The position numbers and the translations under genes were made by a program. From Gemmatimonadota bacterium (GTDB lineage Bacteria; Gemmatimonadota; Gemmatimonadetes; Gemmatimonadales; Gemmatimonadaceae): a stretch of DNA of 48,598 nucleotides. The stretch is from assembly GCA_016218305.1 (NCBI GenBank), contig JACREJ010000085.1, positions 1 through 48,598 of the forward strand, written 5' to 3'. Numbering within the stretch: the stretch's first letter is position 1; every line of letters begins with the position of its first letter. The notes beneath the pieces were generated by a model that was not told where the DNA came from, did not search any database, and saw nothing but the letters and a program-made list of their open reading frames with translations. Positions 5,808 to 47,224 of the stretch are shown piece by piece.

Positions 5808-6048
5808 GGGGAGGGGGAGGAGTACAGGGGTGTAGGACGGGGAGGAGTGGAGAGATGGGTGAGGGAGAGGAGGCGTCCCTCGCATTCTTCGGGGCACGAT
5901 GGTCGCCACTGGCGGCGCTGTCGGGCCCTTCGTGTCTTCGGGCAGGTGAGGGATACGGCGGCCCCTCCGGGCTCGCGCAGGCCCCCTCGCCCCTCCCTCC
6001 GCACTCCACTCCTCACCCCTCCCAGGCCCCTGCACTCCTCCCCCTCCC
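5808..6048. repeat. Long imperfect palindrome, GA/CT-rich class (copy 1)
   Basis: This fills the gap between wbpB and wbpE. The left arm is purine-rich (starts GGGAGGGGGAGGAGTACAGG at 5808). The right arm is the complementary pyrimidine-rich stretch ending CCCCTGCACTCCTCCCCCTC-CC at 6048. The arms pair over some 60-70 nt with mismatches, and the symmetry continues inward to a short centre CGCCACTGGCG at 5904-5914. A second element with the same words lies at 40101-40238; the 16-mer GCCCCTGCACTCCTCC is identical at 6026-6041 and 40208-40223. The open frames crossing it are artefacts of its composition. Function unknown. Confidence 0.8.
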
Positions 6049-6051
6049 AAG

Positions 6052-6094
6052 AGCGTCGGCGACTCCCGTTAGGGAGCCGCCGACGCTAACTTTC
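6052..6094 (+). terminator. Rho-independent terminator after wbpB
   Basis: AGCGTCGGCG (6052-6061) pairs perfectly with CGCCGACGCT (6078-6087). Inside, after one mismatch, CTCCC pairs with GGGAG around a GTTA loop. The run AACTTTCT follows. This is the clearest intrinsic terminator in the window, and it divides the sugar-nucleotide genes into two transcription units. Confidence 0.85.
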
Positions 6095-6109
6095 TCCGGC
6101 TACCCCAAC

Positions 6110-6125
6110 TATAAAGGGGATCCCC
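6110..6125 (+). promoter_or_regulatory. Possible -10 box and adjacent palindrome upstream of wbpE
   Basis: TATAAA at 6110-6115 is an AT-rich hexamer just after the terminator. It is followed directly by the perfect palindrome GGGGATCCCC (6116-6125), near where transcription would begin. No good -35 is visible at the usual spacing. A promoter is expected here because the upstream unit is terminated; the palindrome could be an operator or chance. Confidence 0.35.
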
Positions 6126-6150
6126 GAATCCCCCCTTCCGATACCTGCCC

Positions 6151-7263
6151 ATGTCCGTCCCTCTCCTCGACCTCCGCGCCCAGCACGCCACCATCCGCGA
6201 CGAGATGGTCGCTTCGATCATGAAGGTGGTGGATGACCAGGCGTTCATTCTCGGCAAGCCGGTCGCCGACCTCGAGGCCGAGGTCGCCAAGTTGTCGAAT
6301 GCCAAGTACGCGGTCGGCTGCGCCAGCGGCACGGACGCCCTGCTCATCGCGTACCGCGCGGTCGGGGCGGGGGCGGGGAGCGAGATTGTCACCTCGCCCT
6401 TCACCTTCTTCGCCACGGCCGGCGCCATCCACAACGTCGGCGCCCGTCCAGTCTTCGTGGATATCGACCCGAAGACGTTCAACATCAATCCAGCGGCGGT
6501 GGGCGCGGCCATCAACGCGAAGACCAAGGCCGTCGTGCCGGTGGACCTTTTCGGACAGGTGGCCGCGGTCGAGGAAGTGGCCAGGGTCGCCAAGGGGATC
6601 CCGGTCATCGAGGATGCCGCCCAGAGCATCGGTGCGCGGCGCAAGATCGACGGTACGTGGCGCATGGCCGGCGAAGCGGCGACCATCGGCACCTTCTCGT
6701 TCTTCCCCTCGAAGAACCTCGGCGGGTACGGCGACGGCGGCGCGGTGGTGACGCAGGACGAGGGGCTCTACAACGAGCTCATGCGCCTCCGCACCCACGG
6801 CAGCACGAAGACCTACATCCACGAGATCGTCGGCTACAACTCGCGCCTCGACGCGCTGCAGGCGGCCGCCCTGCTGGCCAAGCTCCCGCACCTGCCGGCC
6901 TGGAGCGCGAAGCGCCGCGCCAACGCGGCGTTCTACAACCAGGCCTTCGCCGACGTTGCCGAGATCACCACGCCGTACACCGAGCCGGTGAGCGAGTCGA
7001 TCTTCAACCAGTACACCATCCGCGTGTCGCGCCGCGACGACCTGAAGGCGCACCTCGCGTCGAAGGGAATCGGCCACTCGGTCTACTACCCGCTCCCGCT
7101 GCACCTGCAGCCGTGTTTTGCGTATCTCGGCTACACGGCGGGGCAGTGCCCCGAAGCCGAGCGCGCGTCGGCCGAAGTCGTGTCGCTCCCGATCTATCCG
7201 GAACTCACGCAGGGCCAGCTCGACGAAGTCGTGTCGGCCGTGCGCGGCTTCTTTGGCAAGTAA
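6151..7263 (+). CDS. wbpE: UDP-2-acetamido-2-deoxy-3-oxo-glucuronate aminotransferase, DegT/DnrJ/EryC1/StrS family
   Basis: A PLP-dependent sugar aminotransferase of 370 residues. Visible family motifs are PLLDLRAQH at the N terminus, CASGTDALLIAYRAVG (residues 57-72) for phosphate binding, VVPVDLFGQ (128-136), IEDAAQS (153-159) and the catalytic lysine K188 in FFPSKNLGGYGDGGA. It transfers an amino group from glutamate to C3 of the WbpB ketone product; wbpD then acetylates it. The ATG at 6151 starts the protein exactly at the conserved N terminus; no Shine-Dalgarno is obvious. wbpA follows after 16 nt. The family also includes aminotransferases for other dideoxy sugars, but the wbpA/B/D neighbours favour WbpE. 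Confidence 0.88.
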   Translation: MSVPLLDLRAQHATIRDEMVASIMKVVDDQAFILGKPVADLEAEVAKLSNAKYAVGCASGTDALLIAYRAVGAGAGSEIVTSPFTFFATAGAIHNVGARPVFVDIDPKTFNINPAAVGAAINAKTKAVVPVDLFGQVAAVEEVARVAKGIPVIEDAAQSIGARRKIDGTWRMAGEAATIGTFSFFPSKNLGGYGDGGAVVTQDEGLYNELMRLRTHGSTKTYIHEIVGYNSRLDALQAAALLAKLPHLPAWSAKRRANAAFYNQAFADVAEITTPYTEPVSESIFNQYTIRVSRRDDLKAHLASKGIGHSVYYPLPLHLQPCFAYLGYTAGQCPEAERASAEVVSLPIYPELTQGQLDEVVSAVRGFFGK

Positions 7264-7279
7264 ACCGGACACTCCGACC

Positions 7280-8629
7280 ATGACGAGCATTCGCGATCGG
7301 CTGCAGCAGCGCATCGACTCCCGCCAGGCGGTCTGCGCCGTGGTGGGCCTCGGCTACGTCGGGCTCCCCCTGGTGATGGAGCTGTGCGAGGCCGGATTCC
7401 ACGTGATCGGCTACGACGTGCAGCAGCGCGTCGTGGACTTGCTCATGCGCGGCGAGTCGCACATCCAGGATGTGCCGGCGGCGCAGGTGGCGAAGCACGT
7501 GAAGGCCGGGCTGTTCACGGCCACGACGGAGGAGGCCCGGCTCTCCGAGGCCGACACGGTGTCCATCGCCGTGCCGACGCCGCTCGCGAAGACGCGCGAC
7601 CCCGACATGACGTACGTGCTCGCGGCGGCTGACGCGATTGCGCGCCAGTCGCATCCGGGCATGCTCGTCGTGCTTGAGAGCACCACGTATCCGGGGACGA
7701 CGCGCGACCTGATGATGCCGCGCCTCGAGGCGCGCGGGCTGACGATCGGCGAGGACGCGTTCCTCGCCTTCTCGCCCGAGCGCGTCGATCCCGGCAACCC
7801 GGTCTGGAACACGAAGAACACGCCCAAGGTGGTCGGCGGCATCACCGCCGCCTGCACCGACATGGCGTCGCGCCTCTACTCCGCGTGCATCGACCGCACC
7901 GTCCCCGTCTCGTCGCCCGAGGCGGCCGAGCTGGTGAAGCTGCTCGAGAACACGTTCCGCTCCGTCAACATCGGCCTCGTCAACGAGATGGCCATTGTCT
8001 GCGACCGGCTGGGCGTCGACGTGTGGGAAGTGATCGAGGCCGCGGCCACCAAGCCGTTCGGCTTCATGAAGTTCACGCCCGGCCCCGGCATCGGCGGCCA
8101 CTGCATCCCGCTCGACCCGCACTACCTCGCGTGGAAGATGCGGACGCTCAACTACAAGACGCGCTTCATCGACCTCGCGTCCGAGATCAACAGCGCCATG
8201 CCGGCCTACGTGGTGGAGAAGGTGGCGCGTGCGCTCAACGACGTGAAGAAATCCGTCAACGGCTCGCGCGTGCTGGTGCTCGGTGTCGCCTACAAGAACG
8301 ACATCGACGACATGCGCGAGAGCCCGGCCCTCGACGTCATCAAGCTGCTCGAGGCGCAGGGGGCGCACGTCGAGTACCACGACCCGCACGTGCCGCGCTA
8401 TCGGGAGGACGGCCACGAAGTCGTGGGCGTGCCCCTCACCGATGAGGTGCTGGTGGCCGCGGACGTGGTCGTGATCGTCACGAACCACAAGGCCGTCGAC
8501 TACCAGCGCGTGGTGAACCTCGCGTCGCTCGTGGTGGACACGCGCCACGCCACGGCAACCCTGAAGCCCGGCAAGGCGCGCATCGTCTCGCTGACCCCCG
8601 ACGCCCCCCGCCAGCACGCCACGGTCTAG
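7280..8629 (+). CDS. wbpA: UDP-N-acetylglucosamine 6-dehydrogenase (WbpA-type nucleotide sugar dehydrogenase)
   Basis: A 449-residue UDP-glucose/GDP-mannose dehydrogenase family protein that oxidises C6 of a UDP-hexose to the uronic acid with two NAD+. The N-terminal Rossmann motif is VVGLGYVGLPLVMELCEAGF (residues 21-40). The central domain has FSPERVDPGNPVWNTKNTPK, and the catalytic cysteine C275 sits in GPGIGGHCIPLDPHYLAW. The PERVDPGN and GHCIPLDPHYL segments are those of the WbpA/WecC subgroup rather than Ugd, so UDP-GlcNAc is the likely substrate, giving UDP-GlcNAcA for WbpB. The ATG at 7280 was chosen over an upstream in-frame start inside wbpE. A 48-nt repeated tract separates it from ugd. 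Confidence 0.87.
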   Translation: MTSIRDRLQQRIDSRQAVCAVVGLGYVGLPLVMELCEAGFHVIGYDVQQRVVDLLMRGESHIQDVPAAQVAKHVKAGLFTATTEEARLSEADTVSIAVPTPLAKTRDPDMTYVLAAADAIARQSHPGMLVVLESTTYPGTTRDLMMPRLEARGLTIGEDAFLAFSPERVDPGNPVWNTKNTPKVVGGITAACTDMASRLYSACIDRTVPVSSPEAAELVKLLENTFRSVNIGLVNEMAIVCDRLGVDVWEVIEAAATKPFGFMKFTPGPGIGGHCIPLDPHYLAWKMRTLNYKTRFIDLASEINSAMPAYVVEKVARALNDVKKSVNGSRVLVLGVAYKNDIDDMRESPALDVIKLLEAQGAHVEYHDPHVPRYREDGHEVVGVPLTDEVLVAADVVVIVTNHKAVDYQRVVNLASLVVDTRHATATLKPGKARIVSLTPDAPRQHATV

Positions 8630-8677
8630 TCTGTTGTCTCTCTGTTGTTTCTCTGTTTTCTCTCTGTTGTCTCTCTC
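8630..8677 (+). repeat. Half-element of the CTCTGTTGT tandem-word class before ugd
   Basis: The whole gap between the wbpA stop and the ugd ATG is four degenerate copies of a word of about 12 nt (TCTGTTGTCTCT). It matches the right arm of the palindrome at 47177-47224 at 43 of 48 positions without gaps. In both places the tract ends flush against a gene boundary. No Shine-Dalgarno is present, so ugd is either translated from this leader or coupled to wbpA. Confidence 0.8.
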
Positions 8678-9982
8678 ATGAACATCACTGTCATCGGTTC
8701 AGGATACGTTGGTCTGGTGGCCGGCGCCTGCTTCGCGGAGACCGGGTCGAGCGTCACGTGCGCCGACATCGATCACGGGAAGATCGACGGGCTGAAGCAG
8801 AACGTCCTGCCCATCTACGAGCCCGGGCTCGACACCCTCGTCGAGCGCAACCAGGCGGCGGGACGCCTGCAGTTCACCACCGACATTGGCGTGGCCGTCG
8901 CCTCGGCCGACGTGGTGTTCATCGCCGTCGGCACCCCGCCCGACGAGGACGGATCGGCTGACCTCAAGCACGTGCTCGCCGTTGCCGACACGATCGGCAG
9001 GCACATGACGCGGGAGACGGTGGTCGTCACCAAGTCCACGGTGCCGGTCGGTACGGCCGACAAGGTGCGCGCCGCGGTCTCCGTGCACGCCAGGTTCCCG
9101 TTCCACGTCTGCTCCAACCCCGAGTTCCTCAAGGAAGGCGCCGCCATCGACGACTTCCTCAAGCCCGACCGCGTCGTGCTTGGAGTCGAGAGCGATTTCG
9201 CGCGCTCGGTGATGGCCGAGTTGTACGCGCCGTTCGTCCGCACCGGCAAGCCGATCATCTTCATGGACATTCCGTCGGCCGAGATGACCAAGTACGCCGC
9301 GAATGCAATGCTGGCGACGCGCATCTCGTTCATGAACGAGATGGCCGGGCTGTGCGAGAAGGTGGGCGCCAACGTGGACCTCGTGCGCAAGGGCATTGGC
9401 AGCGACAGCCGCATCGGGCCGGCGTTCCTCTTCCCCGGTCCGGGATACGGCGGTTCCTGCTTCCCCAAGGACGTGCAGGCGCTGCTGCGCACCGCGCACG
9501 GCGTCGGCGCACCGCTCTCCGTGCTGGAGGCGGTGGAGGAGGCGAACGCGCGGCAGAAGACCGTCGTCGGGGCCAAGCTCGAGAGTGCGCTCGGCTCGCT
9601 CAAGGGCAAGCGCATTGCCGTCTGGGGGCTGGCCTTCAAGGCCAACACTGACGACATGCGGGAATCGCCGGCGCTCGTGCTGGTCGAGCAGGTGCTCGCC
9701 GCCGGCGGCACGGTCTGCGCGCACGATCCCGCCGCGATGCACGAGGCGAAGCGCCGCCTCGGCGACCGTATTCGGTACGCGGAGACCAACTACGCGGCGC
9801 TCGAGGGGGCGGACGCGCTGGTCGTGGTCACCGACTGGAACGAGTATCGGTTCCCCGACTTCGCGCGCATCAAGGCCGCGCTCAAGGCGCCGGTGCTCAT
9901 TGACGGGCGCAACCTGTACGACCCGGCGAAGATGGAGCGGTTCGGCTTCACCTACCGTTCGATTGGACGGGAGCGCGCATGA
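8678..9982 (+). CDS. ugd: UDP-glucose 6-dehydrogenase
   Basis: A 434-residue enzyme converting UDP-glucose to UDP-glucuronate with two NAD+. The N-terminal Rossmann motif is [66 protein letters not shown] and [19 protein letters not shown] are all canonical Ugd blocks. The catalytic cysteine is C261 in [12 protein letters not shown]. The FLKEGAAI and SCFPKD segments distinguish it from the WbpA paralogue just upstream. The ATG at 8678 gives the standard start; in-frame upstream codons would translate the repeat tract. It overlaps uxs by 4 nt (ATGA), and UXS uses its product directly. Confidence 0.95.
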
Positions 9983-10938
9983 GGGTGCTCATCACCGGCG
10001 CTGCGGGCTTTCTGGGCTCGCACCTGTGCGACCGCTTCCTGCGCGACGGTCACGAGGTCGTGGGGCTCGACAACTTCATCACCGGGCACCCGGACAACAT
10101 CGCGCACCTGACCGGGAACGATCGCTTCTCTTTCGTGCGCCACAACATCTCCGAGTTCACGTACGTGGCCGGCCCGCTCGACGGCGTGCTCCACTTCGCG
10201 TCGCCGGCGAGTCCCATCGACTACCTCGAGCTCCCCATCCAGACGCTGAAGGTGGGGTCGCTCGGCACGCACAACGCGCTGGGCATCGCCAAGGCGAAGG
10301 GGGCGCGGTTCTTCCTTGCTTCCACGAGCGAAGTGTACGGTGATCCGCTGGTGCACCCGCAGGTCGAGTCGTACTGGGGCAATGTGAACCCCATCGGCCC
10401 GCGCGGCGTGTACGACGAGGCCAAGCGCTTCGCCGAGGCGATCACGATGGCGTACCACCGCACGCACGGCGTGGACACGCGCATCGTCCGGATCTTCAAC
10501 ACCTACGGCCCGCGCATGCGCCCGCGCGACGGGCGCGTGGTGTCGAACTTCATCGTGCAGGCGCTCAACGGCGAGCCCATCACCATCTACGGCGACGGGT
10601 CGCAGACGCGCTCCTTCTGCTACGTGGACGATGAGGTGGAGGGGCTGTACCAGCTCTTCCTCCGCGGCGATGCCAACCCGTGCAACATCGGCAATCCCGA
10701 CGAGTACACCGTGAAACAGCTCGCCGAGATCGTCGTGGAGCTTACCGGGTCGAAGGCGCCCATCACCTTCGAGCCGCTGCCCGAGGACGATCCCAAGGTG
10801 CGCAAGCCCGACATCTCCCGCGCCAAGGCCCTGCTGGGCTGGACGCCGAAGGTGGACGTCCGCACCGGGGTGCAGCGCACCATCGACTACTTCCGCACGC
10901 TCACGGGGTCGCCGCGCATGGCCCCGCGCGGCCGCTGA
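9979..10938 (+). CDS. uxs: UDP-glucuronate decarboxylase (UDP-xylose synthase)
   Basis: A 319-residue extended SDR that oxidises, decarboxylates and re-reduces UDP-glucuronate to UDP-xylose with bound NAD. The cofactor motif GAAGFLGSH lies at residues 7-15 and the catalytic Y145-x3-K149 is in YDEAKR. The block [13 protein letters not shown], followed by [20 protein letters not shown], is the signature of UXS and separates it from RmlB and GalE. The ATG overlaps the ugd stop by 4 nt, so precursor and product enzymes are coupled. UDP-xylose, or its derivatives, would feed glycan assembly. The protein lacks the N-terminal membrane anchor of eukaryotic UXS. Confidence 0.93.
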
Positions 10939-10978
10939 CCTGCTGAACCACCGCCCCCTTGCCGGGTACTTCTCTGTC

Positions 10979-11764
10979 GTGACCCATCGCTACCGCGTCC
11001 TCCTCCTCCTGCTCGTCGCGTCCGCGGCGTGCCGGCCGGCGTTCAAGCTCCGGAACTACACGACCAATGAGGCGCTCTACAAGGCCTCGCTCGAGCGCTT
11101 GCAGAAGCGAAAATGGTCGGACGCCGTGGCGGGCTTCGAGAAGCTGACGCTCGACCTGCCCGCGCGCGACACGCTGCTCCCGACGGCCTACTGGCATCTC
11201 GCCAGGGCGCACACCGGGCTCGCGGAGCACCTCCTCGCGGCGCAGGAGTACACCAAGCTTGCCGAGAACTTCGCCGACGACACGCTGGCCGACGACGCGC
11301 TCTTCCAGTCGGGGCGCAGCTATGCGCGCCTCTGGCGCCGCCCGTCGCTCGATCCGCAGTACGGCCAGCTCGCGCAGGTCCAGTATCGCCTCATGGTGAC
11401 GCTCTACCCGGACTCGCCGCTGCGAAAGAACGCCGACGCGGAGTTGCTGCGCCTCGACGAGTGGTTCGCCACCAAGGACTTCGATACGGGTGACGGCTAC
11501 TATCGCCGCAAGGCGTACGATTCGGCGATCATCTACTTCCGCGACGTGGTCAAGAACTACCCCAACACGGACCGGGCGCGGCAGGCGATGATCAAGATGG
11601 TGCAGGCGTATCGCTCGCCGGTGATGAACTACCGCGAGGACGCGCGCGAAGTCTGCGCGACGCTGTTCACGTTGTACCCGACGGATCCAGAGGTCCTGAA
11701 GGCGTGTGAAGGCATGAAGCCAGCGGCCGATACGACGGCGGTGCCGGCCAAGCCGGCACCCTAG
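10979..11764 (+). CDS. bamD: Outer-membrane assembly lipoprotein BamD-like (TPR)
   Basis: A 261-residue lipoprotein. A basic N terminus, hydrophobic run and lipobox SAAC put the acylated cysteine at C18. TPR-like repeats follow: YKASLERLQKRKWSDAVAGF, AYWHLARAHTGLAEHLLAAQ, then the BamD-typical blocks ADDALFQSGRSY, YRLMVTLYPDSPLRKNAD and YYRRKAYDSAIIYFRDVVKN-YPNTDRARQA. BamD partners BamA in inserting beta-barrel proteins into the outer membrane. The start is a GTG at 10979, 40 nt after uxs. nadD begins 3 nt after its stop. BamA and other Bam genes are not in the window, so a paralogous TPR lipoprotein cannot be excluded, but length and repeat order fit BamD. Confidence 0.8.
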   Translation: MTHRYRVLLLLLVASAACRPAFKLRNYTTNEALYKASLERLQKRKWSDAVAGFEKLTLDLPARDTLLPTAYWHLARAHTGLAEHLLAAQEYTKLAENFADDTLADDALFQSGRSYARLWRRPSLDPQYGQLAQVQYRLMVTLYPDSPLRKNADAELLRLDEWFATKDFDTGDGYYRRKAYDSAIIYFRDVVKNYPNTDRARQAMIKMVQAYRSPVMNYREDAREVCATLFTLYPTDPEVLKACEGMKPAADTTAVPAKPAP

Positions 11765-11767
11765 TCC

Positions 11768-12331
11768 GTGCGGATCGGCATTTTCGGCGGGACCTTCGAC
11801 CCGCCGCACGTGGGGCACTGGCTCGCGGCGGTGGATGCCGTCGAGGCGCTGGCGCTCGACGAGGTAGTGTGGGTGCCGGCGGCGCAGCAGCCGTTGAAGG
11901 CTGGCGTCTCATCGGCTGACACGGCGCATCGCCTCGCGATGGCCCGGCTCATGGTGCTGGGAGACACGCGGTTCAGGGTGGATGCGGTGGAACTGGAGCG
12001 GGGCGGGCTGTCGTTCACCGTGGATACGCTCCGGGCCTATCGGGAGCGATATCCCGACGCGGCACTGTTCCTGCTCTTAGGGAGAGACGCGGCGGCCAGC
12101 CTGCCGAAGTGGCGGGAGCCCGAGGTCATCCGGGAACTGGCGGAAATCGTGGTACTGACGCGGGGCGGGGAGGCGGCGTCGCTCCCCTCCGGCGTGCGGG
12201 AGTTGCCGACGCGTCGCGTGGACGTGTCGGCGACCGAGATTCGGGAGCGGGTGGCGGCGGGGCGCTCCATCCGCGGGTTCGTGCCGGACGCCGTGGCCGC
12301 GTATATCGCGGCGCACGGCCTGTACCAATAG
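11768..12331 (+). CDS. nadD: Nicotinate-nucleotide adenylyltransferase
   Basis: A 187-residue nucleotidyltransferase that adenylates nicotinate mononucleotide to deamido-NAD in NAD synthesis. The N-terminal motif GIFGGTFDPPHVGHW contains the HxGH nucleotide-binding signature (residues 15-18), and the C-terminal region has VSATEIRERVAAGRS, the SxTxIR motif that closes on ATP. VVWVPAAQQPLK matches the family segment VWFVPAxxPPxK. The start is GTG at 11768, 3 nt after bamD, and secA follows 10 nt after its stop. rsfS, a frequent neighbour of nadD, is absent. Confidence 0.93.
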   Translation: MRIGIFGGTFDPPHVGHWLAAVDAVEALALDEVVWVPAAQQPLKAGVSSADTAHRLAMARLMVLGDTRFRVDAVELERGGLSFTVDTLRAYRERYPDAALFLLLGRDAAASLPKWREPEVIRELAEIVVLTRGGEAASLPSGVRELPTRRVDVSATEIRERVAAGRSIRGFVPDAVAAYIAAHGLYQ

Positions 12332-12341
12332 AGGACACTGA

Positions 12342-15578
<3,237 letters not shown>

Positions 15579-15705
15579 CGCCCCGCGGGGTGGGTGCACC
15601 CGTGGCGGTCGGCTGCCACGTGGTGCGCGCCCCATTGCGGAATGGTGCAGACGGTCCAAGACTTCGGGCAGACGCCGTACACCCCCGTTCGTTGGTGGAG
15701 GGTCC

Positions 15706-17106: not shown

Positions 17107-17127
17107 GCGAGCGCGGTGAGGGAACGC

Positions 17128-17168
17128 GGCCCGGAGCGCAACATCGCGCACCGGGCCGTGTGCTTTTG
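17128..17168 (+). terminator. Probable terminator after the secreted-protein gene
   Basis: GGCCCGG (17128-17134) pairs with CCGGGCC (17151-17157), and an inner GCGC/GCGC extends the stem around AACATC. GTGTGCTTTT follows. It lies 22 nt after the stop codon at 17106. Confidence 0.65.
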
Positions 17169-17194
17169 GTGACGGTCCGAAGTGCGGGGACCGC

Positions 17195-17200: not shown

Positions 17201-17205
17201 GCGGC

Positions 17206-40101: not shown

Positions 40102-40238
40102 GGGGAGGGGTGCAGGGGTTTGGAAGGAGCGAGGAGTGGAGAGAGGGGTGAGAAGAGAGGAGGCCTCCTCTCTCCTCCCTCCTGCCTCCACTCCTCTCTC
40201 CTACTAAGCCCCTGCACTCCTCCTCCTCCTCCCCTCCC
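40101..40238. repeat. Long imperfect palindrome, GA/CT-rich class (copy 2)
   Basis: It starts at the hutU stop and ends 15 nt before the next gene. The left arm has GGGGTGCAGGGG and GAGGAGTGGAGAGAGGGGTG; the right arm has CTCCACTCCTCTCTCC and GCCCCTGCACTCCTCC. The exact centre is the perfect 18-mer palindrome GAGAGGAGGCCTCCTCTC (about 40155-40172). It pairs over nearly its full length. It is homologous to 5808-6048, with the central region unrelated. There is no U-run after it. Confidence 0.85.
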
Positions 40239-40253
40239 GTATCTTGCTCCCAC

Positions 40254-41222
40254 ATGCTAAGCCCCAAGTTCAAACCCTGGCACCTAATCCCCTTCGCCCT
40301 CAAGTACGCCCGGCTGCGGCTGCAGCGTCGTCCGGTCCTCGTCAACTTCGAGGTCACGATGCGCTGCAACGCGTCGTGCGGCGGCTGCGACTACTGGCAG
40401 ACGCCCGCGTCGGAGAAGGCGAGTGAGCTGAAGTCGTTCGCCGACGCCGCGCGCGCCTTCGACCCGATGATGATCACGTTCACGGGGGGCGAACCGACGC
40501 TGCGGCGCGACCTCGAGGACATCGTCGCCGAGGTCGCGAAGGCGGTGCCGTACTGCTACATGAGCCTGCTGACGCACGGCGGCATGCTGACCCTCGAGCG
40601 CGCCCAGGCGCTGTGGGACGCCGGGCTCGCGCAGTTCAGCATCTCGCTCGACTACCTCGACGAGCGCCACGACACGGTCCGCGGCATTCCCGGCCTCGCC
40701 GCCAAGATCCTCGCGCTCGCGCCGCAGTTGAGCGCGCGGGGCATGGCGGTGCGCTTCAATACGGTCATCCGGGATGACAACCTCGACGACATCCTCCCCA
40801 TCGTACGGCACGCGCACGCCGTCGGCGCCGGCGTCAACCTGTCGGTCTACACCGACATGAAGAACGGCAGCAAGGACCACCTCATCCGCGCCGACCAGCA
40901 CGCGCGCGTGCAGGGGCTGGTGGACGACCTGCTCGCCTTCAAGCGCGCTCACCGCGGCGTCATCACCAACTCCGACTGGTACCTGCAGCAGCTGCCGCGC
41001 TACCTGCGCAACGAGATGCCCGAGCCGTGCCGGTCAGGCGAGACGACGATCCACATTGATCCGCGCGGCCTCGTGCGCCGCTGCCCCGACTTCCCGGCCG
41101 ACGCGCACTGGACCGAGTACAACGGCTACACGCCGATCGCGTGCAATGCCTGCTACTACGCCTGCCGCGGCGAGGCCCAGGCCCCGCTGACGCTTTCGCG
41201 GTTCCAGGACCTGCTGGCGTAG
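40254..41222 (+). CDS. Radical SAM protein with C-terminal cysteine cluster, function unknown
   Basis: A 322-residue radical SAM enzyme. The 4Fe-4S/SAM motif is C38-N-A-S-C42-G-G-C45 (CxxxCxxC) in FEVTMRCNASCGGCDYW, followed by MMITFTGGEPTLRRDLEDIV (the GGE motif) and YMSLLTHGGMLTLERAQALW. QFSISLDYLDERHDTVRGIP is typical of the MoaA/SPASM superfamily. The C-terminal region has Cys in EPCRSGE, RCPDFP and CNACYYACRGE, suggesting an auxiliary Fe-S cluster (SPASM or Twitch-like). No precursor peptide or partner is adjacent, so the substrate is unknown. It lies between hutU and hutI, flanked by palindromes. Confidence 0.8.
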   Translation: MLSPKFKPWHLIPFALKYARLRLQRRPVLVNFEVTMRCNASCGGCDYWQTPASEKASELKSFADAARAFDPMMITFTGGEPTLRRDLEDIVAEVAKAVPYCYMSLLTHGGMLTLERAQALWDAGLAQFSISLDYLDERHDTVRGIPGLAAKILALAPQLSARGMAVRFNTVIRDDNLDDILPIVRHAHAVGAGVNLSVYTDMKNGSKDHLIRADQHARVQGLVDDLLAFKRAHRGVITNSDWYLQQLPRYLRNEMPEPCRSGETTIHIDPRGLVRRCPDFPADAHWTEYNGYTPIACNACYYACRGEAQAPLTLSRFQDLLA

Positions 41223-41237
41223 CCGCGCCCGCGCGTC

Positions 41238-41308
41238 GCCGGGGCGCTTCGGTCGAACGGGGAGGCGGGGGTGCGCGCCGCCGGGGCGCTTCGGTCGGAC
41301 GGGGAGGC
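41238..41308 (+). repeat. Direct repeat, two copies of a 29-nt unit
   Basis: GCCGGGGCGCTTCGGTCGAA (first 20 nt of the copy at 41238-41266) recurs at 41280-41308 with one mismatch (A to G). The second copy is also the left arm of the palindrome that follows. Confidence 0.75.
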
Positions 41309-41397
41309 CCTCGCTCAATTCTCGGGTTCGCGAGCGCGCTGAGCGCGCCCGCGGACCCTCGAGTATTCGCGAGAACCTCCCCGTCCGACCGAAGCGC
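41286..41397. repeat. GC-rich imperfect palindrome downstream of the radical SAM gene
   Basis: The outer 22 nt on each side (41286-41307 and 41376-41397) are perfect inverted repeats (GCGCTTCGGTCGGACGGGGA and its complement). The exact centre is a perfect 7-1-7 hairpin GCGCGCT-G-AGCGCGC (41335-41349). The intervening arms pair with mismatches. It begins 64 nt after the stop codon. A shorter pairable region (GTGGGGCG from 41400 with CGCCCCCAC to 41468) follows. Confidence 0.8.
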
Positions 41398-41479
41398 GCG
41401 TGGGGCGCCGCGTGAGGAGTCGCGCGATCGAACTCCGGCGCTGGCGCGAAGCGCCGTCACGCCCCCACACCAGTGGTCG

Positions 41480-41595
41480 GCGGCGCGGCGCGGGGGATCC
41501 TTCCCGCGAATACAGGAGGGCTCAACAGAGGCGCGCGAAGCGCGCCAGTCAGGCCCGACAATTGAGCGGGAGGGATTCCCCGCGCCGCGCCGCGA
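41480..41595. repeat. Second GC-rich imperfect palindrome, upstream of hutI
   Basis: GCGGCGCGGCGCGGGGGATC near 41480 pairs with GATTCCCCGCGCCGCGCCGC ending at about 41595. The centre is a perfect hairpin GGCGCGC-GAA-GCGCGCC (41530-41546). The two palindromes and the region between them fill 41223-41600, where I see no credible gene; the open frames there are side effects of the symmetry. Confidence 0.75.
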
Positions 41596-41610
41596 AACCA
41601 CGAAGTGAAG

Positions 41611-41616
41611 TAACTT
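41611..41616 (+). promoter_or_regulatory. Possible -10 box of hutI
   Basis: TAACTT (41611-41616) is an AT-rich hexamer in GC-rich DNA after the palindromes, which would give a 5' leader of about 46 nt for hutI. The -35 is not clear. The leader holds an ATG at 41622 that opens a 26-codon frame overlapping hutI. Confidence 0.35.
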
Positions 41617-41668
41617 CCATCATGGCAGGTCCGACGCATTCCGCGCTCCAAGTCCTCAATCAGTCAGC

Positions 41669-42922
41669 ATGCCGCTCCTCTTCGACAACGCCGCCCAAGT
41701 AGTCACCTGTGCCGGCCCCCCCCGCGCCCGCCGCGGCAACGAGATGGGAGGCCTCGAGGTGCTGACGGGGGCGGCCGTCGTCACCGAGGGCGATCGCATC
41801 GTCGCCGTCGGTCCGCGTGACACGGTGCGCGCCGCGCACCCCGGGGCCGCGGTCGTGGACTGCGGCGGGCGTGTCCTGATGCCGGGCCTCGTCGATTCGC
41901 ATACGCACGGGATCTTCGGCAAGCCGCGGCACGAGGAGCAGGAATTGCGGGCCGCCGGCGTCGGCTACATGGAAATCGCCAAGCGCGGCGGCGGCATCCA
42001 CAGTTCGGTGCGCGACCTGCGCGCGCGCTCGGAGGACGACCTCTTCGCCCTCGCGCTGCCGCGCCTGCGGCGCCTCGCCGCGCACGGCACCACCACCGTC
42101 GAGGTGAAATCGGGCTACGGCCTCACCCCCGACGATGAGATCAAGTCGCTCCGCGTGATCCGCCGCCTCCAGCAGGCGCTTCCGCTGCGCCTCGTGCCCA
42201 CCTTCCTCGGTGCGCACGAGATTCCCGTCGAGTACCGCGCCGCGCCGCGCACCCGGGAGGAGTACATCGCGCTGATCGTGGAGGACATGCTGCCGCGCGT
42301 CGCCGCCGAGGGGCTCGCCGCCTTTGCCGACATCTTCTGCGAGCCCGGCGTCTATACGACCGACGAAGCGCGCGTCATCCTCGGCGCGGCGCGGCGGCAC
42401 GGCCTCCAGCTCAAGCTCCACGCCGATGAGCTCGAGACCGCCGGCGCCGCCGAGCTTGCCGCCGAACTCGGCGCTGTCAGCGCCGATCACCTCGCGGCCG
42501 TGTCGGAGGGAGGCATCAAGGCGCTGGCCGCCGGGCAGACGGTGGCGACGCTGCTCCCCGGAACGATGCTCTTCCTGGGCCGGCCTCGGCAGGCCCCGGC
42601 GCGGACGCTGATCGACGCAGGCGCCGCCGTTGCCCTCGCGACCGATTTCAATCCCGGCACCTCACCCACGGTCAACTTCCCGCTCGTCCTGACGCTGGCC
42701 GTGAGCCAACTCCGCCTGCGCGTCAGCGAGGCGGTCCTCGCCGCGACCGTCAATGGGGCGGCCGCCCTCGGCCTGGCCGCCGAAACGGGGCAGGTGGCCC
42801 CCGGCTACTCGGCGGATCTCGCGCTGTTCGACATCGAGGACGTGCGCGAACTTCCGTACTGGTACGGCGACCAGCGCTGCCACGCCACGTGGGTCCGCGG
42901 CGTCCCCGCCCACGGGGCCTGA
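41669..42922 (+). CDS. hutI: Imidazolonepropionase
   Basis: Hydrolyses imidazolone-5-propionate to N-formimino-L-glutamate, the third step of histidine degradation. 417 residues of the amidohydrolase superfamily: RVLMPGLVDSHTHGIFGKPR carries metal ligands H78 and H80; GYMEIAKRGGGIHSSVRDLR, AHGTTTVEVKSGYGLTPDDE, PTFLGAHEIPVEYR and KLHADELETAGAAELAAELG follow, and ALATDFNPGTSPTVNFPLVL closes the site. The HTH block reads HTHGIFGKPRHEEQE where many HutI have HTHxVFxGxRxxEF; the Arg is kept. hutG or hutF for the final step is not in the window. ATG at 41669 lacks a Shine-Dalgarno. Confidence 0.95.
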   Translation: MPLLFDNAAQVVTCAGPPRARRGNEMGGLEVLTGAAVVTEGDRIVAVGPRDTVRAAHPGAAVVDCGGRVLMPGLVDSHTHGIFGKPRHEEQELRAAGVGYMEIAKRGGGIHSSVRDLRARSEDDLFALALPRLRRLAAHGTTTVEVKSGYGLTPDDEIKSLRVIRRLQQALPLRLVPTFLGAHEIPVEYRAAPRTREEYIALIVEDMLPRVAAEGLAAFADIFCEPGVYTTDEARVILGAARRHGLQLKLHADELETAGAAELAAELGAVSADHLAAVSEGGIKALAAGQTVATLLPGTMLFLGRPRQAPARTLIDAGAAVALATDFNPGTSPTVNFPLVLTLAVSQLRLRVSEAVLAATVNGAAALGLAAETGQVAPGYSADLALFDIEDVRELPYWYGDQRCHATWVRGVPAHGA

Positions 42923-42974
42923 GCGGGGGGACAGGCGGTCTCCCGTCTACCCCCTGCCACCTACCATCTGCCCG

Positions 42975-43004
42975 TTGTCATACTCCCCGTCCGCGGCGTA
43001 CCTT
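42975..43004 (+). promoter_or_regulatory. Probable promoter of the TPR gene operon
   Basis: TTGTCA (42975-42980), an 18-nt spacer and TACCTT (42999-43004) followed by TC (TANNTTTC form). It is the best -35/-10 pair in the window and gives a leader of about 58 nt before 43069. Upstream, 42925-42955 has a weak G-run/C-run pairing that may end hutI transcription. Confidence 0.55.
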
Positions 43005-43068
43005 TCCAACCGGACGATTACGCCCGTCTAAGGTTGTGAACCTGGCCTGAAATTGCGCGCCGACCCCT

Positions 43069-45537
43069 ATGGCTGATCTCGCCAAGCTCAAGAAGAAGGC
43101 TGCCGACTTCGAAGCCGCGAAGAAGTTCGACAAGGCGATCGCAGCGTATCGCGAGGTCCTTGACGTCTACGACGCGGGCGACGAAGCCGACATCGAGGTC
43201 GCCCTCTACAACCGCGTCGGCGACCTGCTCATGCGCCATGGGGAGACCGCCGAGGCGGTCACGCTCTACGAACGCGCGGTGGACCTGTACGCCGAGGGCG
43301 GGTTCTTCAACAACGCCATCGCGCTGTGCAACAAGGTGCTGCGCTCCTCGCCGGGACGCGCCTCGGTCTACTACAAGCTCGGCAAGATCTCCGCGGCCAA
43401 GGGCTTCAAGGGCGACGCCAAGCAGAACTTCCTCGAGTACGCCGACCGCATGCAGAAGGCCGGCAACAAGAACGAGGCGTTCCGCGCGCTGAAGGAATTC
43501 GCCGACCTCTGCCCCGACCAGGACGACATCCGCCTGATGCTGGCGGACCAGCTGCTGAAGGCCGAGCGGAAGGACGAGGCCATCGAGCAGCTCTCGAGCC
43601 TGCTCGAGCTCTATCAGGCCAGCGGCCAGTCGGCTGAGGCGGACGCGACGCTGGAGCGCATTCGCGCCATTGACCCGTCGGCCACGCCGCGCACGGCGCG
43701 GCGCTCCGTCGAGGCCAAGGCCGCCGATGACCTGATCTTCCTCGATCTCGATGCGCCGACCCCGCCGCGCAAGACGCGGATGTCTACGGTCGCGCCCGTC
43801 GTCACCATGCCGGTGGAGCCGCCGACAACGCCCAAGGCGCCGACGCCAGGAGCCCCGGAGCCCGAGCCGCTGGTCGAGATGCCGGCCCTCGAGGGCATCG
43901 AGGCCACGCACTTCGATGCGAGCGCGACGACGGCCGACGCCGGTTCGATGCTCGGCCTCGAGACGACATCGCTTGTCCCGGATGCCGCGGATGAGTCGGC
44001 GCCGATGACGGCCGGGGAGTTCGCGGAACTCGATCTCTCCGTGGTGGAGGAGGTCCGGTCGCCGATGCGCGAATCCGCGCGCGGCCTCGCCCTGACGGGC
44101 GACCTGCCGATCATCGATACCTCGGCCCGACTGGGAGGGGCGACCGCCGAGGAGGAGACGGCCGACATTCCGCTGCTCGATTTGACGGACGGGCCCGCCG
44201 ACACCGGCGCCACCCCGACCCTCGACATCGAGTTGCCGATGATCGAGGTTGGCGTCTCGTCGCCCGCCGTCGAGTCGGCGCCCGCCGCGGCGGACGATCT
44301 CGGCTTCATCGACCTCGATGCGGCGCCGGTGGAAGCGGCCGCCGCGCCGGAAGTGGATGCGCCCACCGACTTCGGCGAAGTGGACGTCGACATCGTCGAG
44401 GCGCCGACGCCGCCCGTGCGCCGCACGACGTCGATGGCCATCCCCATGCTTGCCTCGAGCATCGAGGACCTGCGCGAGCAGGTGGCCCGCGAGCCGGAGA
44501 ACTGGAACCTGCGGCGGCAGCTCGCCGAGACGATGCTCGACGAGGGCCATCGCGAGGAAGGGCTCGCGATGCTCGAGGAGACGATGTCGGGCTTCGAGCG
44601 CGCCGGGCAGATCCACGAGGCGCGTTCGGTGGCCGACGAGGTCGTCCGCCTCAACCCGTCGTCGGTGCGTCATCACCAGAAGCGCGTCGAGTTCGCGTTC
44701 CGCGACGACGACAAGGCGGGGCTCGCCCAGGCGTACCTCGATCTCGCCGATGCGCTCTTCCGCGACGGCCATCCGGACAAGTCGAAGGCGGTCTACCAGC
44801 GCGTCCTCGAGATCGCGCCGACCGACGCTCGCGCCCTCGCGGCCCTCGAATCGCTGTCCGCCCTCGAGGCGCCCGCGCCGGCCCCGGAGCGGCGTCCCAC
44901 CGCCGCGGTGCCGCCGCCCGCGGCCGGCAAGCGCTACACGGGGATGATCACCGCCATTCCCGAGCCGCCGCCGAAGCCGGCTGCCGCACCCGCGGCTGCC
45001 GCGGACGAGGACTTCGTGTCGCTCGGCGACTGGCTGCGCGAGGACGAGGAACCCAAGTCCACGCGCATGGTGGTCGAGGAGAAGGAACCGACGGGCGATG
45101 AGGACGCGGACTTCCAGGACATGCTGCGCAAGTTCAAGCAGGGCGTCGCGCAGAACGTCGAGGAAGGGGACCACGAGTCGCATTACGACCTCGGCGTCGC
45201 CTACAAGGAGATGGGGCTGCTCGACGAGGCCATCGCCGAGTTCCAGAAGGCGCTGCGCGGCGCGCAGCTGCGGGTGCGCACCTATGAGGCGCTCGGCATG
45301 TGCTTCCTCGAGAAGGGGCAGCTGCCGGTGGCGCTCACCATCCTGCAGCGGGCGCTGGCCGAGCCGGGCGTCGGCGACGAACAGCTCGTCGGCGTGCTGT
45401 ACCTGCTCGGGTACGTTTCCGAGGGGCTCAAGAAGCCGGCCGAGGCCAAGGGGTACTACGAGCGCGTCTTCGCCGTGGACATCCAGTTCCGTGACGTGGG
45501 TGATCGGTTGAGCGCCGTCGAGGCGTCCATCTCGTGA
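43069..45537 (+). CDS. Large TPR-repeat protein with acidic disordered linker, function unknown
   Basis: An 822-residue cytoplasmic-looking protein (no signal or membrane segment). N-terminal TPRs cover about 1-215: KKAADFEAAKKFDKAIAAYR, YNRVGDLLMRHGETAEAVTL-YERAVDLYAEGGFFNNAIAL and YKLGKISAAKGFKGDAKQNF. A linker of about 250 residues, rich in Asp, Glu, Pro, Ala and Thr, follows (215-460). A second TPR block lies at about 465-600 (RQLAETMLDEGHREEGLAML and YLDLADALFRDGHPDKSKAV), then another Pro/Ala linker, and final TPRs from about 700 (YDLGVAYKEMGLLDEAIAEF-QKALR). TPRs bind proteins, and similar TPR-linker-TPR proteins occur in Gemmatimonadota and Acidobacteriota as far as I recall; no role is assigned. 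It overlaps the polyprenyl synthase gene by 4 nt. Confidence 0.8.
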   Translation: MADLAKLKKKAADFEAAKKFDKAIAAYREVLDVYDAGDEADIEVALYNRVGDLLMRHGETAEAVTLYERAVDLYAEGGFFNNAIALCNKVLRSSPGRASVYYKLGKISAAKGFKGDAKQNFLEYADRMQKAGNKNEAFRALKEFADLCPDQDDIRLMLADQLLKAERKDEAIEQLSSLLELYQASGQSAEADATLERIRAIDPSATPRTARRSVEAKAADDLIFLDLDAPTPPRKTRMSTVAPVVTMPVEPPTTPKAPTPGAPEPEPLVEMPALEGIEATHFDASATTADAGSMLGLETTSLVPDAADESAPMTAGEFAELDLSVVEEVRSPMRESARGLALTGDLPIIDTSARLGGATAEEETADIPLLDLTDGPADTGATPTLDIELPMIEVGVSSPAVESAPAAADDLGFIDLDAAPVEAAAAPEVDAPTDFGEVDVDIVEAPTPPVRRTTSMAIPMLASSIEDLREQVAREPENWNLRRQLAETMLDEGHREEGLAMLEETMSGFERAGQIHEARSVADEVVRLNPSSVRHHQKRVEFAFRDDDKAGLAQAYLDLADALFRDGHPDKSKAVYQRVLEIAPTDARALAALESLSALEAPAPAPERRPTAAVPPPAAGKRYTGMITAIPEPPPKPAAAPAAAADEDFVSLGDWLREDEEPKSTRMVVEEKEPTGDEDADFQDMLRKFKQGVAQNVEEGDHESHYDLGVAYKEMGLLDEAIAEFQKALRGAQLRVRTYEALGMCFLEKGQLPVALTILQRALAEPGVGDEQLVGVLYLLGYVSEGLKKPAEAKGYYERVFAVDIQFRDVGDRLSAVEASIS

Positions 45538-46541
45538 CCGCCGGTCCGCCCCCCGTCCGCATGCCGCTGGCGCCCGCGCTCCTGGACATCCAGGCCCCGG
45601 TCCGCGAGCGCCTCGCCCGCGTCCCGGAGGAGATGTGGCGCATCGTGCGTGCCGACGCCCCCATCGTCGAGTCGGTGAACGCGCACCTGACCGGCATGAA
45701 GGGGAAGATGTTCCGCCCCACGGTGCTGCTCCTCGCGTCGCAGATCGCCGGCACGCCCGATGATCGCGGCATCCGCCTGGCGGCCATCACCGAGCTCGTC
45801 CACCTCGCCAGCGTGGTGCACGACGACTCGGTGGACCACTCGCCGCTGCGCCGCGGGATGCCCACGATCAACGCGCTCTTCTCGCACCAGGTGGCGGTCA
45901 TCGCGGGCGACTATCTCTACTCGCGCGCGCTGGCCGAACTGGTCGCCGTCGGCGACTTCGAGCTGCTGCGCGTGATGCTGGGGGCGTCCAACGACATGAC
46001 GCTGGGCGAACTGCGCCAGCTGGCCTCGTACGACGCGCTGCAGTTCACGGAAGCGGATTACTGGCTGCTGGTGCAGGCGAAGACGGCGTCGCTCCTCGGG
46101 GCGGCCGCCGAGGCGGGCGCGCTCTGCGGCGCCCCGCGCTTCCGGCAGCAGCTGGCCAGGTTCGGCCACCTGCTGGGCATGGCCTTCCAGGTGGCCGACG
46201 ACCTGCTCGACTATACCGAGACCGAATCGGTGACCGGCAAGCCGAGCGGCAACGACCTGAAGGAACACAAGGTGACGCTGCCGCTCATCGCCTCGCTGCC
46301 CAGGATGTCGCGCGCCCAGCGCGCGCGCGTGGAGGCGTTGTTTGCCGCACCCATTCCCACGGACGCGGAGATTACCGACGTGGTGGCCATCGTGCATGAA
46401 TGCGGGGGCATCGATTTCGCCCGCCGCAAGGGTGAGGAGTTCGCCGCCGACGCCGAGTCGGCGCTCGTGGACGTCCCGGCGTCCGAGGCGCGCCAGTCGC
46501 TCATCGACGCGCTGGGCTACGTCATGGACCGGAGGTCCTGA
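45534..46541 (+). CDS. Long-chain all-trans polyprenyl diphosphate synthase
   Basis: A 335-residue trans-prenyltransferase that extends allylic diphosphates with isopentenyl diphosphate. The first Asp-rich motif is D97-D98-S-V-D101 in ASVVHDDSVDHSPLRRGMPT and the second is D222-D223-L-L-D226 in FQVADDLLDYTE. GKMFRPTVLLLAS carries the family Arg. Small residues at positions -4 and -5 before the first motif (A92, S93) allow a long product such as a quinone side chain (hepta- to decaprenyl). SGNDLKEHKVTLPLI is the conserved GxDLxExKxTLP block. It starts at GTG 45534 in a GTGA overlap. Product length is inferred; ispB, hepT or sds-type names all fit. Confidence 0.93.
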   Translation: MTAGPPPVRMPLAPALLDIQAPVRERLARVPEEMWRIVRADAPIVESVNAHLTGMKGKMFRPTVLLLASQIAGTPDDRGIRLAAITELVHLASVVHDDSVDHSPLRRGMPTINALFSHQVAVIAGDYLYSRALAELVAVGDFELLRVMLGASNDMTLGELRQLASYDALQFTEADYWLLVQAKTASLLGAAAEAGALCGAPRFRQQLARFGHLLGMAFQVADDLLDYTETESVTGKPSGNDLKEHKVTLPLIASLPRMSRAQRARVEALFAAPIPTDAEITDVVAIVHECGGIDFARRKGEEFAADAESALVDVPASEARQSLIDALGYVMDRRS

Positions 46542-46822
46542 TGGCCCTCTCCGGATCTTCCAAGCACCGGCCGGGGTTCCATGCCGTGGTGCTCGCCATC
46601 GGGTTCATCGTGGGCGGGTTTCTCACCCAGTTCGCCCGCATGTTCCTGCCGACCGGGGCGGTGAAGGAGTTCCTCACCACCGGGGTCACGCCGGCCATCG
46701 GGCCGCTGACTATTAACCTGATCATCGTTAACATTGGCTTGGGGCCCATCGCGCTCGACGTCTCGTTGCTGAGCCTCGTCGGGGTCCTCGTCGCTTACCT
46801 CATCGCGCGCTCGCTCTTCTAG
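46541..46822 (+). CDS. Small membrane protein, DUF4321-like
   Basis: A 93-residue protein with two or three hydrophobic segments: GFHAVVLAIGFIVGGFLTQF (residues 12-31), TINLIIVNIGLGPIALDVSL (57-76) and LLSLVGVLVAYLIARSLF (76-93). The plan of glycine-rich first helix, amphipathic loop PAIGPLTIN, then I-x-L-x-LIG-like last helix matches DUF4321 proteins of Firmicutes in outline. Function unknown. ATG at 46541 shares its A with the polyprenyl synthase stop. Its TAG overlaps the first bases of the tatA Shine-Dalgarno, so the four genes from 43069 look like one operon. Confidence 0.65.
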   Translation: MALSGSSKHRPGFHAVVLAIGFIVGGFLTQFARMFLPTGAVKEFLTTGVTPAIGPLTINLIIVNIGLGPIALDVSLLSLVGVLVAYLIARSLF

Positions 46823-46831
46823 GAGGCATCT

Positions 46832-47083
46832 ATGTTTGGACTCGGCCCGGGCGAAATGCTGATGGCCCTCGTGGCTATCCTGCTCCTGTTTGGCGCCAAG
46901 CGCATTCCGGAGATCGCCGGCTCGTTCGGCAAGGGCATCCGGGAATTCAAGAAGAACATGAGTGATGTACAGAAGGAAATAGAGGCTCCTGAATCGCGGC
47001 CGGTCGATCGCTTGCCCAGCGCCTCGGAGCGCGCCGAGCGCGTCGCGGATGAGGACAGGCCGGAGCCCAAGAAGCTCATCTAG
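46832..47083 (+). CDS. tatA: Twin-arginine translocase TatA/TatB-type protein
   Basis: An 83-residue protein: GLGPGEMLMALVAILLLFGA (residues 3-22) forms one membrane helix, KRIPEIAGSFGKGIREFKKN is the amphipathic helix, and the tail is charged. The FGxxxIPEIxxxxGKGIxxFK pattern is canonical TatA. It forms the pore element recruited by TatC. The Shine-Dalgarno AGGAGG (46821-46826) is 5 nt from the ATG at 46832 and overlaps the preceding stop codon. It is separated from tatC by 13 kb. No TatB is seen in the window, so this one protein may do both jobs. Confidence 0.93.
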   Translation: MFGLGPGEMLMALVAILLLFGAKRIPEIAGSFGKGIREFKKNMSDVQKEIEAPESRPVDRLPSASERAERVADEDRPEPKKLI

Positions 47084-47086
47084 GCG

Positions 47087-47224
47087 CAGAGAAACAACAG
47101 AGAGACAACAGAAAGACAACAGAGGAACAACAGAGCGGGGCGCCCCGATTTCCGAGGCGCCCCGTCCCGTTGCAAGTCTGTTGTCTTTCTGTTGCTTCTC
47201 TGTTGTTTCTCTGTTGTCTCTCTT
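47087..47224. terminator. Bidirectional palindrome of ACAACAGAGAG words between convergent genes
   Basis: The gap between tatA and the convergent foldase gene. The left arm is tandem ACAACAGAGAG/ACAACAGAAAG words (47087-47135). The centre is CGGGGCGCC (47136-47144) with GGCGCCCCG (47156-47164) around CCGATTTCCGA. The right arm (47177-47224) is the complement of the left-arm words and ends at the stop codon of the minus gene. The GC hairpin with AT-richer flanks on both sides suits a terminator serving both strands. Confidence 0.75.

Follow-up and report, generated by a model that had tools for sequence, protein, structure and literature searches.

What accounts for long imperfect palindromes that fill one gap between genes after another in the same bacterial genome and follow one plan, with arms built of short words that differ from family to family? 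The question is raised by the window, the whole stretch of 48,598 nucleotides (nt) analysed here, which is the entire contig C28 (JACREJ010000085.1; G+C 69%) of a Gemmatimonadota assembly of 2.0 Mb in 116 contigs. The gap palindromes look like gene-less offshoots of small S23-type genes that lie inside arms of the same word. A master in this sense would be a PF05635 (S23/IVP) gene inside inverted arrays of a short word, or a PF13366 (GxxExxY) gene inside or beside such arrays, beside being the arrangement for most of those in the genus. The association of masters with palindromic satellites that lack an open reading frame (ORF) is established, and from it we infer mobilisation. In the following, G000 is the window's own genome, G001 the main congener compared, L-numbers are loci or stretches and F-numbers word families.

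The original prediction, made from the letters of the window, described at least six long imperfect palindromes in gaps. An inverted-repeat search by dynamic programming (einverted-like, +3/-4/-12, span up to 500) recovered all seven cited palindromes with scores of 70-113, whereas the window after dinucleotide shuffling, repeated ten times, produced 8 matches of at least 50 in all, with a top score of 55. All seven fall in gaps between called genes, the one at 40095-40233 starting within the final hutU codons. Genes were called from codon composition with no standard gene finder, and gene starts are therefore approximate. RNA folding of four elements, two of which were folded on both strands (six sequences in all), gave z-scores of -5.4 to -15.0. 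A search of the window against Rfam gave no match and no rRNA.

The search was extended to a G000 sample of the window and 40 further stretches (494,924 bases, about a quarter of the genome) and to a G001 sample of 364,917 bases. G000 yielded 54 palindromes scoring at least 60, of which 52 have a coding share below 30%, and G001 yielded 30, of which 27 do; one shuffle of each sample gave none. Because the palindromes beat the shuffles and occur across both genomes, neither chance symmetry nor a peculiarity of this locus explains them, and the proposed search of the genome and a relative for arm-paired elements returned 52 and 27 gap palindromes. Elements in tandem gaps start a median of 7 nt (G000) or 6 nt (G001) past the stop codon, and those in convergent gaps mostly span from stop codon to stop codon. 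By gap type, the G000 elements number 34 tandem, 9 convergent, 5 divergent and 4 unplaced (gaps of at least 100 nt: 100, 20 and 31), and those of G001 15, 9, 2 and 1 (gaps: 65, 20 and 29), so that divergent gaps are poorer in elements but do hold some. Purines make up over half of the left arm in 46/52 and 26/27 elements, respectively; the purine-rich arm therefore usually comes first on either strand.

The lead to partner genes was the start of a GxxExxY-like frame, seen by eye in a word-bearing stretch (L160), which led to searches with PF13366 and PF05635. PF05635 occurs in 11/11 genomes of the genus and PF13366 in 8/11. From 54 genus matches to PF05635, 37 were examined (20 returned as loci and 17 more, including all of G000 and G001). 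Twenty-seven of the 37 lie within inverted word arrays whose arms, 445-648 nt apart, enclose the ORF, and 25 of these score at least 60; a 28th armed match (L374), with coding arms, was dropped from the count. Among 189 control genes of 250-620 nt subjected to the same test, 6 scored at least 45 and only one at least 60, the latter being an IVP gene itself. The ten loci outside arms comprise eight that represent one orthologous locus, the unarmed L292, and L367, which an F1c palindrome adjoins. That orthologous locus is unarmed in eight genomes (L364, L369, L373-L378) and has TACGCT-word arms in two (L282, L283); a C-terminal tail of SRPRSTS-like sequence is common to several of the unarmed proteins, which look as though they were retained for a different task. 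The IVP genes of G000 are L285 in F4 arms, L299 in F6, L362 in F2 and L363 in F1 arms, and the unarmed L364. NCBIfam assigns the four armed ones to the four helix bundle family TIGR02436, Pfam assigns the three tested to PF05635, and L285 matches the solved structures 2gsc and 2rld.

The arm words follow the proteins. The IVP tree has 8 switches of word class, compared with 21.9 when shuffled and with 0/200 shuffles as low, a clustering that near-copies ease and that runs over some weak forks. Clade B occupies the same locus in 11/11 genomes and clade A in 7, with conserved flanking proteins on at least one side and with differing words; the clade A locus lies between two convergent stops. For PF13366, 15 of 16 genus matches were tested: 3 lie within arms, 9 have a palindrome within 300 nt (in one of these, L274, with no recognised word) and 3 have none. 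Palindromes of F3 and F8 adjoin GxxExxY genes. In one G001 locus (L268, contig C21) the GxxExxY gene is flanked by an F3 palindrome on each side, the whole forming a giant nested inverted repeat with a score of 319.

These results do not support the view that the families are unrelated words of single loci with no common mobile ancestor visible. The families are dispersed and have homologous copies, 11 of the F1 copies in G000 being alignable over 60-nt arms. Moreover, their apparent lack of kinship stems from each one tracking a PF05635 paralog of its own, or a PF13366 (GxxExxY) gene, in or beside arms of the matching word. The description of the arms as tandem words of 9-14 nt stood in part: the arms of partner genes have best periods of 7 to 18, mostly 7, 10-11 and 13-14; in the arm of the F1 partner no period rises above the shuffled level. 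Other inter-arm spans of more than 200 nt in the sampled genomes were rejected as masters, one IVP element apart; they are genes between two solo copies (metallo-beta-lactamase-like by eye in both genomes, and in L015 an ORF), pairs of F2 or F7 elements and, in L010, an extended symmetry within coding sequence.

Applied as probes, the arms of the partner genes found at least one arm in 68/235 gaps of 30-1500 nt in G000 and in 58/182 in G001, a few of which (e.g. L027 and L100) contain the probe loci themselves. Shuffled gaps gave none and gene interiors 1/301 and 1/212 windows, which bears out a plan shared across families and nearly confined to gaps. Single left arms in tandem gaps adjoin the stop of the preceding gene, at medians of 3 and 4 nt, and single right arms tend toward the next start.

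Of the solo palindromes, 37/52 in G000 and 23/27 in G001 match partner arms. The best partner lies in the same genome for 24/37 (one tie included) and 19/23 (one being the probe's own palindrome), with own-genome arms making up 9/66 and 12/66 of a probe set that is uneven, its F1- and F2-type masters having been fetched from G000 and G001 only. The cleanest case is F2, for which the masters are orthologous: 7/7 G000 copies are nearest to L362 and 5/5 G001 copies nearest to L366, a count that omits the G000 elements L075 and L081 with GxxExxY-type words (L083:1214 is not F3). On average, copies are closer to their own master than to one another in 6/6 families, and closer to it than to one foreign master in 5/5 families tested, the foreign masters being hand-chosen and, for F4, the same word being carried by other congeners.

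The elements of the window and their matches to partner arms are as follows.

5809-6048, no strand assigned: F1 palindrome with GGAGTGCAGGGG.. arms, 3' of the stop at 5806; score 90; arms match those of the IVP gene L363 (G000:C57) with 79 versus 30 shuffled.
8630-8676, minus strand: one-armed F4 array, a tandem repeat (TCTGTTGTCTC x4.3) abutting the stop at 8629; F4 match of 79 with the right arm alone, left arm absent.
18103-18191, minus strand: one-armed F2 array that runs up to the start of relA/spoT, boundaries by eye; its gap has a right-arm F2 match of 84 and no left-arm match of at least 40.
20393-20578, no strand assigned: F2 palindrome with the words GGATTGGGAGCTCGG / GGGATTCGCGATT, past the stop of relA/spoT (20381); score 101; 99 versus 25 shuffled against the arms of the IVP gene L362 (G000:C87).
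25489-25644, no strand assigned: F3 palindrome (CACAGAGACACGGAGG) in the gap downstream of ssb; score 79; top match the arms beside the GxxExxY gene L276 of the congener G006, 51 versus 26 shuffled, the best own-genome probe giving only 21.
28463-28513, minus strand: one-armed F2 array, a tandem repeat just 5' of the next start (28520); right-arm F2 match of 89.
40095-40233, no strand assigned: F1 palindrome from the last hutU codons (stop 40101) up to the radical-SAM gene; score 111; 85 versus 37 shuffled against the L363 arms.
41275-41408, no strand assigned: F7 palindrome (..GCTCAATTCTCGGG.. / ..CCCTCGAGTATTCGC..); score 95; no match among the partner arms examined, and no partner gene found.
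41480-41593, no strand assigned: second palindrome in the F7 gap, with an F7-like inner motif by eye; score 70; likewise no match among the partner arms examined and no partner gene found.
47087-47213, no strand assigned: F4 palindrome (ACAACAGAGAG, period 11) filling the convergent tatA/PPIase gap, its arms surrounding a GC-rich hairpin at about 47136-47164; score 113; 84 versus 29 shuffled against the arms of the IVP gene L285 (G000:C19).

By eye only, the left end of the gap that holds 18103-18191 (from 17899 on) resembles F1b. A right-arm F6 match right at the cut-off of 40 at 42923-43068 may be a decayed single arm. Next to the F3 element, the minus-strand frame 25646-26242 is probably no gene; it overlaps the plus-strand frame 25743-26171, whose ssb neighbourhood is kept in congeners, and with the latter in its place the ssb gap is tandem, not convergent.

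Comparison between species showed turnover at fixed sites. The hutU gap holds F1 in G000, an F1-like element in G002, F1c in G001, G005 and G010, and nothing in G004 and G008; among 23 farther relatives it has a palindrome only in G024 (CGGCGCT) and G027 (GGTAAGGGC). All 10 sequences read for the tatA/PPIase gap (own and nine congeners) show, by eye, a GC-rich hairpin, and the word arrays around it vary, being ACAACAGAG, AAAGCAGAG, ACGACAGAG, AAGACGACAG, one-sided GGTAGATGG or GGATGGCGG, or none. On one side of this gap in G010 (L116) the word AAGACGACAG is repeated about 13 times in near-identical form, and the other side has a similarly long array, a sign of recent expansion. The same gap can carry a different family in different species: F4 versus F6, F7 versus F2 versus F6, or, after ssb, F3 versus F1. 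The exact F3 word CACAGAGACACGGAG is patchy, occurring in 8/200 genomes of the phylum and in 1/4 congeners in that sample. The F7 elements of both genomes are strong GC-rich palindromes in which, by eye, an asymmetric inner motif CTCAATTCTCGGG stands opposite CGAATACTC; they lie at 41275-41593 of the window and at L070:203-307, L077:7415-7572, L083:4844-4949, L087:2800-3082 and L096:731-849 and 3414-3509.

The same partners recur outside the phylum. The word CACAGAGACACGGAGGA was found in at least 120 stretches, and the 80 listed come from 16 named bacterial phyla and Methanobacteriota, two records stating no phylum; 51/80 lie inside a palindrome of at least 45 and 64/80 have further copies of the word nearby. 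In 26 named genomes with the F3 word, drawn from these 80 loci, PF13366 is present in 23 and PF05635 in 17 (16 above the cut-off), compared with 3 and 0 of 14 control genomes; these rates are not bacteria-wide, because the genomes were picked for the F3 word. Among the loci fetched, 17/30 IVP and 22/30 GxxExxY genes lie within inverted arms, after IVP loci L303, L320 and L331 and GxxExxY locus L349 were dropped (arms that are not words, or a far too long gap between the arms) and with IVP locus L311 kept, which has short arms and no clear period; for kept loci cut by a contig end, the coordinates were compared by eye with the match interval. The GxxExxY arms follow, by eye, one grammar (CACNGAG, CACAAAG, CGCGGAT and similar), and the IVP arms are mostly heptads, with a best period of 7 or 14 in 13/17. 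Rfam found no rRNA at the 20 IVP loci searched of the 30. In an Acidobacteria genome, where a 100-kb sample gave 7 palindromes, solo copies carry the word of their own master (L395 and L396 versus L308, by eye).

Words shared within each genome, agreement of IVP clade and word, orthologous IVP loci, word change between species and location at gene ends are thus observed, and the gap palindromes are probably ORF-less satellites of PF05635 or PF13366 master genes, in a REPIN-RAYT-like arrangement that involves no known transposase. The master protein would recognise the stem of its own word as a DNA or RNA hairpin and would help copies of the arms to seed into gaps at gene 3' ends. These may be the least harmful sites, where copies could persist as 3'-end hairpins, and slippage would afterwards alter the number and sequence of the words. 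A host enzyme, replication-linked template switching or, for GxxExxY elements, the predicted nuclease itself are candidates for the chemistry of seeding. No clear target-site duplication was found, and in G000 neither a RAYT nor a reverse transcriptase. The longest shared flank word was 3.30 versus 3.06 after re-pairing of flanks (50 elements; 10/200 re-pairings as high) and, in a second set, 3.07 versus 2.96 (27 elements; 59/200 as high), and shared flank words of at least 5 nt occurred in 1/50 and 3/27 elements. The RAYT profile Y1_Tnp (PF01797) and the reverse transcriptase profile RVT_1 (PF00078) had no match in G000, so that both were rejected as the mover there; they were found in 2/11 and 1/11 genomes of the genus.

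Several observations weigh against the master-satellite reading. No partner match was obtained for 15/52 palindromes in G000 and 4/27 in G001. No partner gene was found for F7, and none carrying its word for F5, although one of the three F5 copies matches the GxxExxY arms of L268 (45 versus 19). An F3-armed GxxExxY gene is absent among the three PF13366 matches in G000, and the F1c partner in G001 has only an adjacent palindrome. In the tatA gap, own masters rank first in just 3/9 genomes with armed ones, and the words are nearly identical in several congeners. One G000 F4 copy (L077) has its nearest master in G001, and two G000 F1c copies are nearest to a G001 probe. Some gaps have a single arm only or arms from two families, neither of which is predicted by insertion of whole elements; no clear target-site duplication was found, with the ends of the elements uncertain. 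Palindromes are sparse in two of three genomes of other phyla (Longilinea, 2 in 200 kb; Fibrobacteres, 1 in 100 kb), and we know of no catalytic function of IVP. The reading does not account for F7, F5, the chimeric gaps, the tendency of the purine-rich arm to come first, or the single right arms that precede start codons.

The main rival is a regulon of binding sites, in which an IVP or GxxExxY protein would bind its word stem, as RNA or DNA, and thereby regulate itself along with many transcripts; ordinary recombination would have spread the sites, selection would retain them at 3' ends, and nothing would be mobile. It would suit a word class that follows the protein clade, sites that adjoin stop codons, positions retained while the sequence turns over, and unarmed IVPs kept at one orthologous locus in eight genomes. 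We nevertheless consider it unlikely, since arms in about 29-32% of the probed gaps would make a very broad regulon, the family in a given gap changes from one species to another, and divergent gaps also hold elements. Nor do the mismatches support the suggested RNA role with covarying arms: when tandem-gap elements are read on the strand of the transcript, G-U and A-C mismatches occur with similar frequency (78 versus 62 and 38 versus 34), so that a G-U bias is not clear.

Alternatively, the palindromes could spread by other means, with the IVP and GxxExxY genes as parasites that home into palindromes whose word they recognise. Masters differ from solo copies by a central ORF and may occupy the same kind of site, as clade A does between convergent stops. 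The PDDEXK superfamily consists of nucleases, and the match of GxxExxY to Pfam PDDEXK_3 would suit homing. Yet IVP masters stay at orthologous loci across the genus and do not hop between palindromes, and copies are on average closer to the master than to each other, which makes this account improbable.

Local slippage with templated inversion at terminators and no master gene, the process first suggested for the window, fits the varying copy number of the arrays, such as the long run of words on one side of the G010 tatA gap, and the GC hairpin inside the tatA arms. However, a purely local process leaves homologous 60-nt F1 arms at 11 unlinked sites unaccounted for, as well as the tie to IVP and GxxExxY genes, and we regard it as very improbable. 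The strong hairpins notwithstanding, an intrinsic-terminator role, with a run of T behind a GC-rich hairpin, is not borne out by the counts, which lie near the shuffled ones: in the two stretches scanned, terminator-like sites numbered 4 versus 4.1 shuffled (38000-48598) and 10 versus 6.5, sd 2.9 (4000-23900); among the cited elements within them only 47087-47213 has such sites, two overlapping ones in its GC core, and the 25489 element lies outside both. A conventional MITE or REP, satellite of a transposase or RAYT yet to be identified, would account for dispersed inverted-repeat elements but is scarcely credible given the near-absence of Y1_Tnp and RVT_1 from the genus in a search that covered those two profiles, and given the lack of a clear target-site duplication.

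RAYT genes have copies of their own repeat on either side. The present elements resemble REPIN-RAYT systems in being dispersed palindromic repeats in gaps and in having a vertically inherited, fixed-locus master flanked by the repeat, here the IVP, which keeps its locus in clades A and B and is armed at 27/37 of all loci examined in the genus. RAYT masters are reported to be single-copy and vertically inherited (PMC8049555), and REPIN-RAYT repeats to carry a GTAG or CGTC tag at one end (PMC3733652). Here, in contrast, the place of the tyrosine transposase would be taken by a GxxExxY protein or by S23/IVP with its four-helix bundle, no RAYT was found in G000, and short words in tandem often make up the arms. 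The intervening sequences (IVS) of 23S rRNA share the protein family and the arrangement of a PF05635 ORF between complementary ends, which here holds for masters only, solo copies having no ORF. In Coxiella, tandem heptamers (GACAGAT) precede the S23p ORF of the IVS (PMC4990558), and in CPR bacteria IVP ORFs lie in insertions of 16S and 23S rRNA genes (PMC11270868). The present elements differ in lying between protein genes, in having ORF-less copies, and in the lack of rRNA in the window and at the 20 other-phylum IVP loci searched. A further trait of IVS is excision by RNase III.

Gap repeats of similar description are known from Geobacter, where multicopy intergenic sequences form palindromic families with direct repeats of 6-42 nt in many gaps and non-random insertion (PMC2996986) and other elements consist of four heptanucleotide repeats (PMC2700814). 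The likeness is by description only, and the available text of these two papers names no partner gene. Avd, an accessory protein of diversity-generating retroelements, resembles PF05635, and sequence and structure alignment suggest homology (PMC10053308), whereas 10/11 genomes of the genus have no reverse transcriptase match. Eighteen IVP genes have been reported in CRISPR-Cas loci, often alongside nuclease genes (PMC3936711), in a paper whose available text does not mention word arms. In open-licence PMC papers, no literature tying PF05635 or PF13366 to such repeats was found, and for the words themselves nothing relevant appeared by title and start of abstract.

More tentatively, and with somewhat less than even confidence, S23/IVP and GxxExxY proteins may found a widespread bacterial and archaeal class of masters and satellites, in which each protein would recognise a hairpin of its own word and seed palindromes at gene ends with neither a classical transposase nor a reverse transcriptase; the rRNA intervening sequences would be a special case seated in an rRNA helix. 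As of 2016, the functionality and origin of IVS were described as unclear and S23p proteins as lacking a known function (PMC4990558). If true, the proposal would explain common gap repeats, namely the heptad arrays and the CACAGAG word of the 16 named bacterial phyla and one archaeal phylum among the stretches listed, and would give the S23/IVP family a testable target, its own word, and thereby a handle on the function of puzzling proteins. Several S23 paralogs already occur within one genus, and each brings a word of its own and a set of ORF-less copies open to counting, comparison and assay.

Two further observations concern the hut region of the window. An eighth palindrome (40500-40727, score 62) lies within the radical-SAM gene and is one of the two in the G000 sample that score at least 60 with a coding share of at least 30%. 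The segment 38443-42922 holds hutU and hutI with this radical-SAM gene between them, and in the congeners compared, too, the radical-SAM gene comes after hutU.

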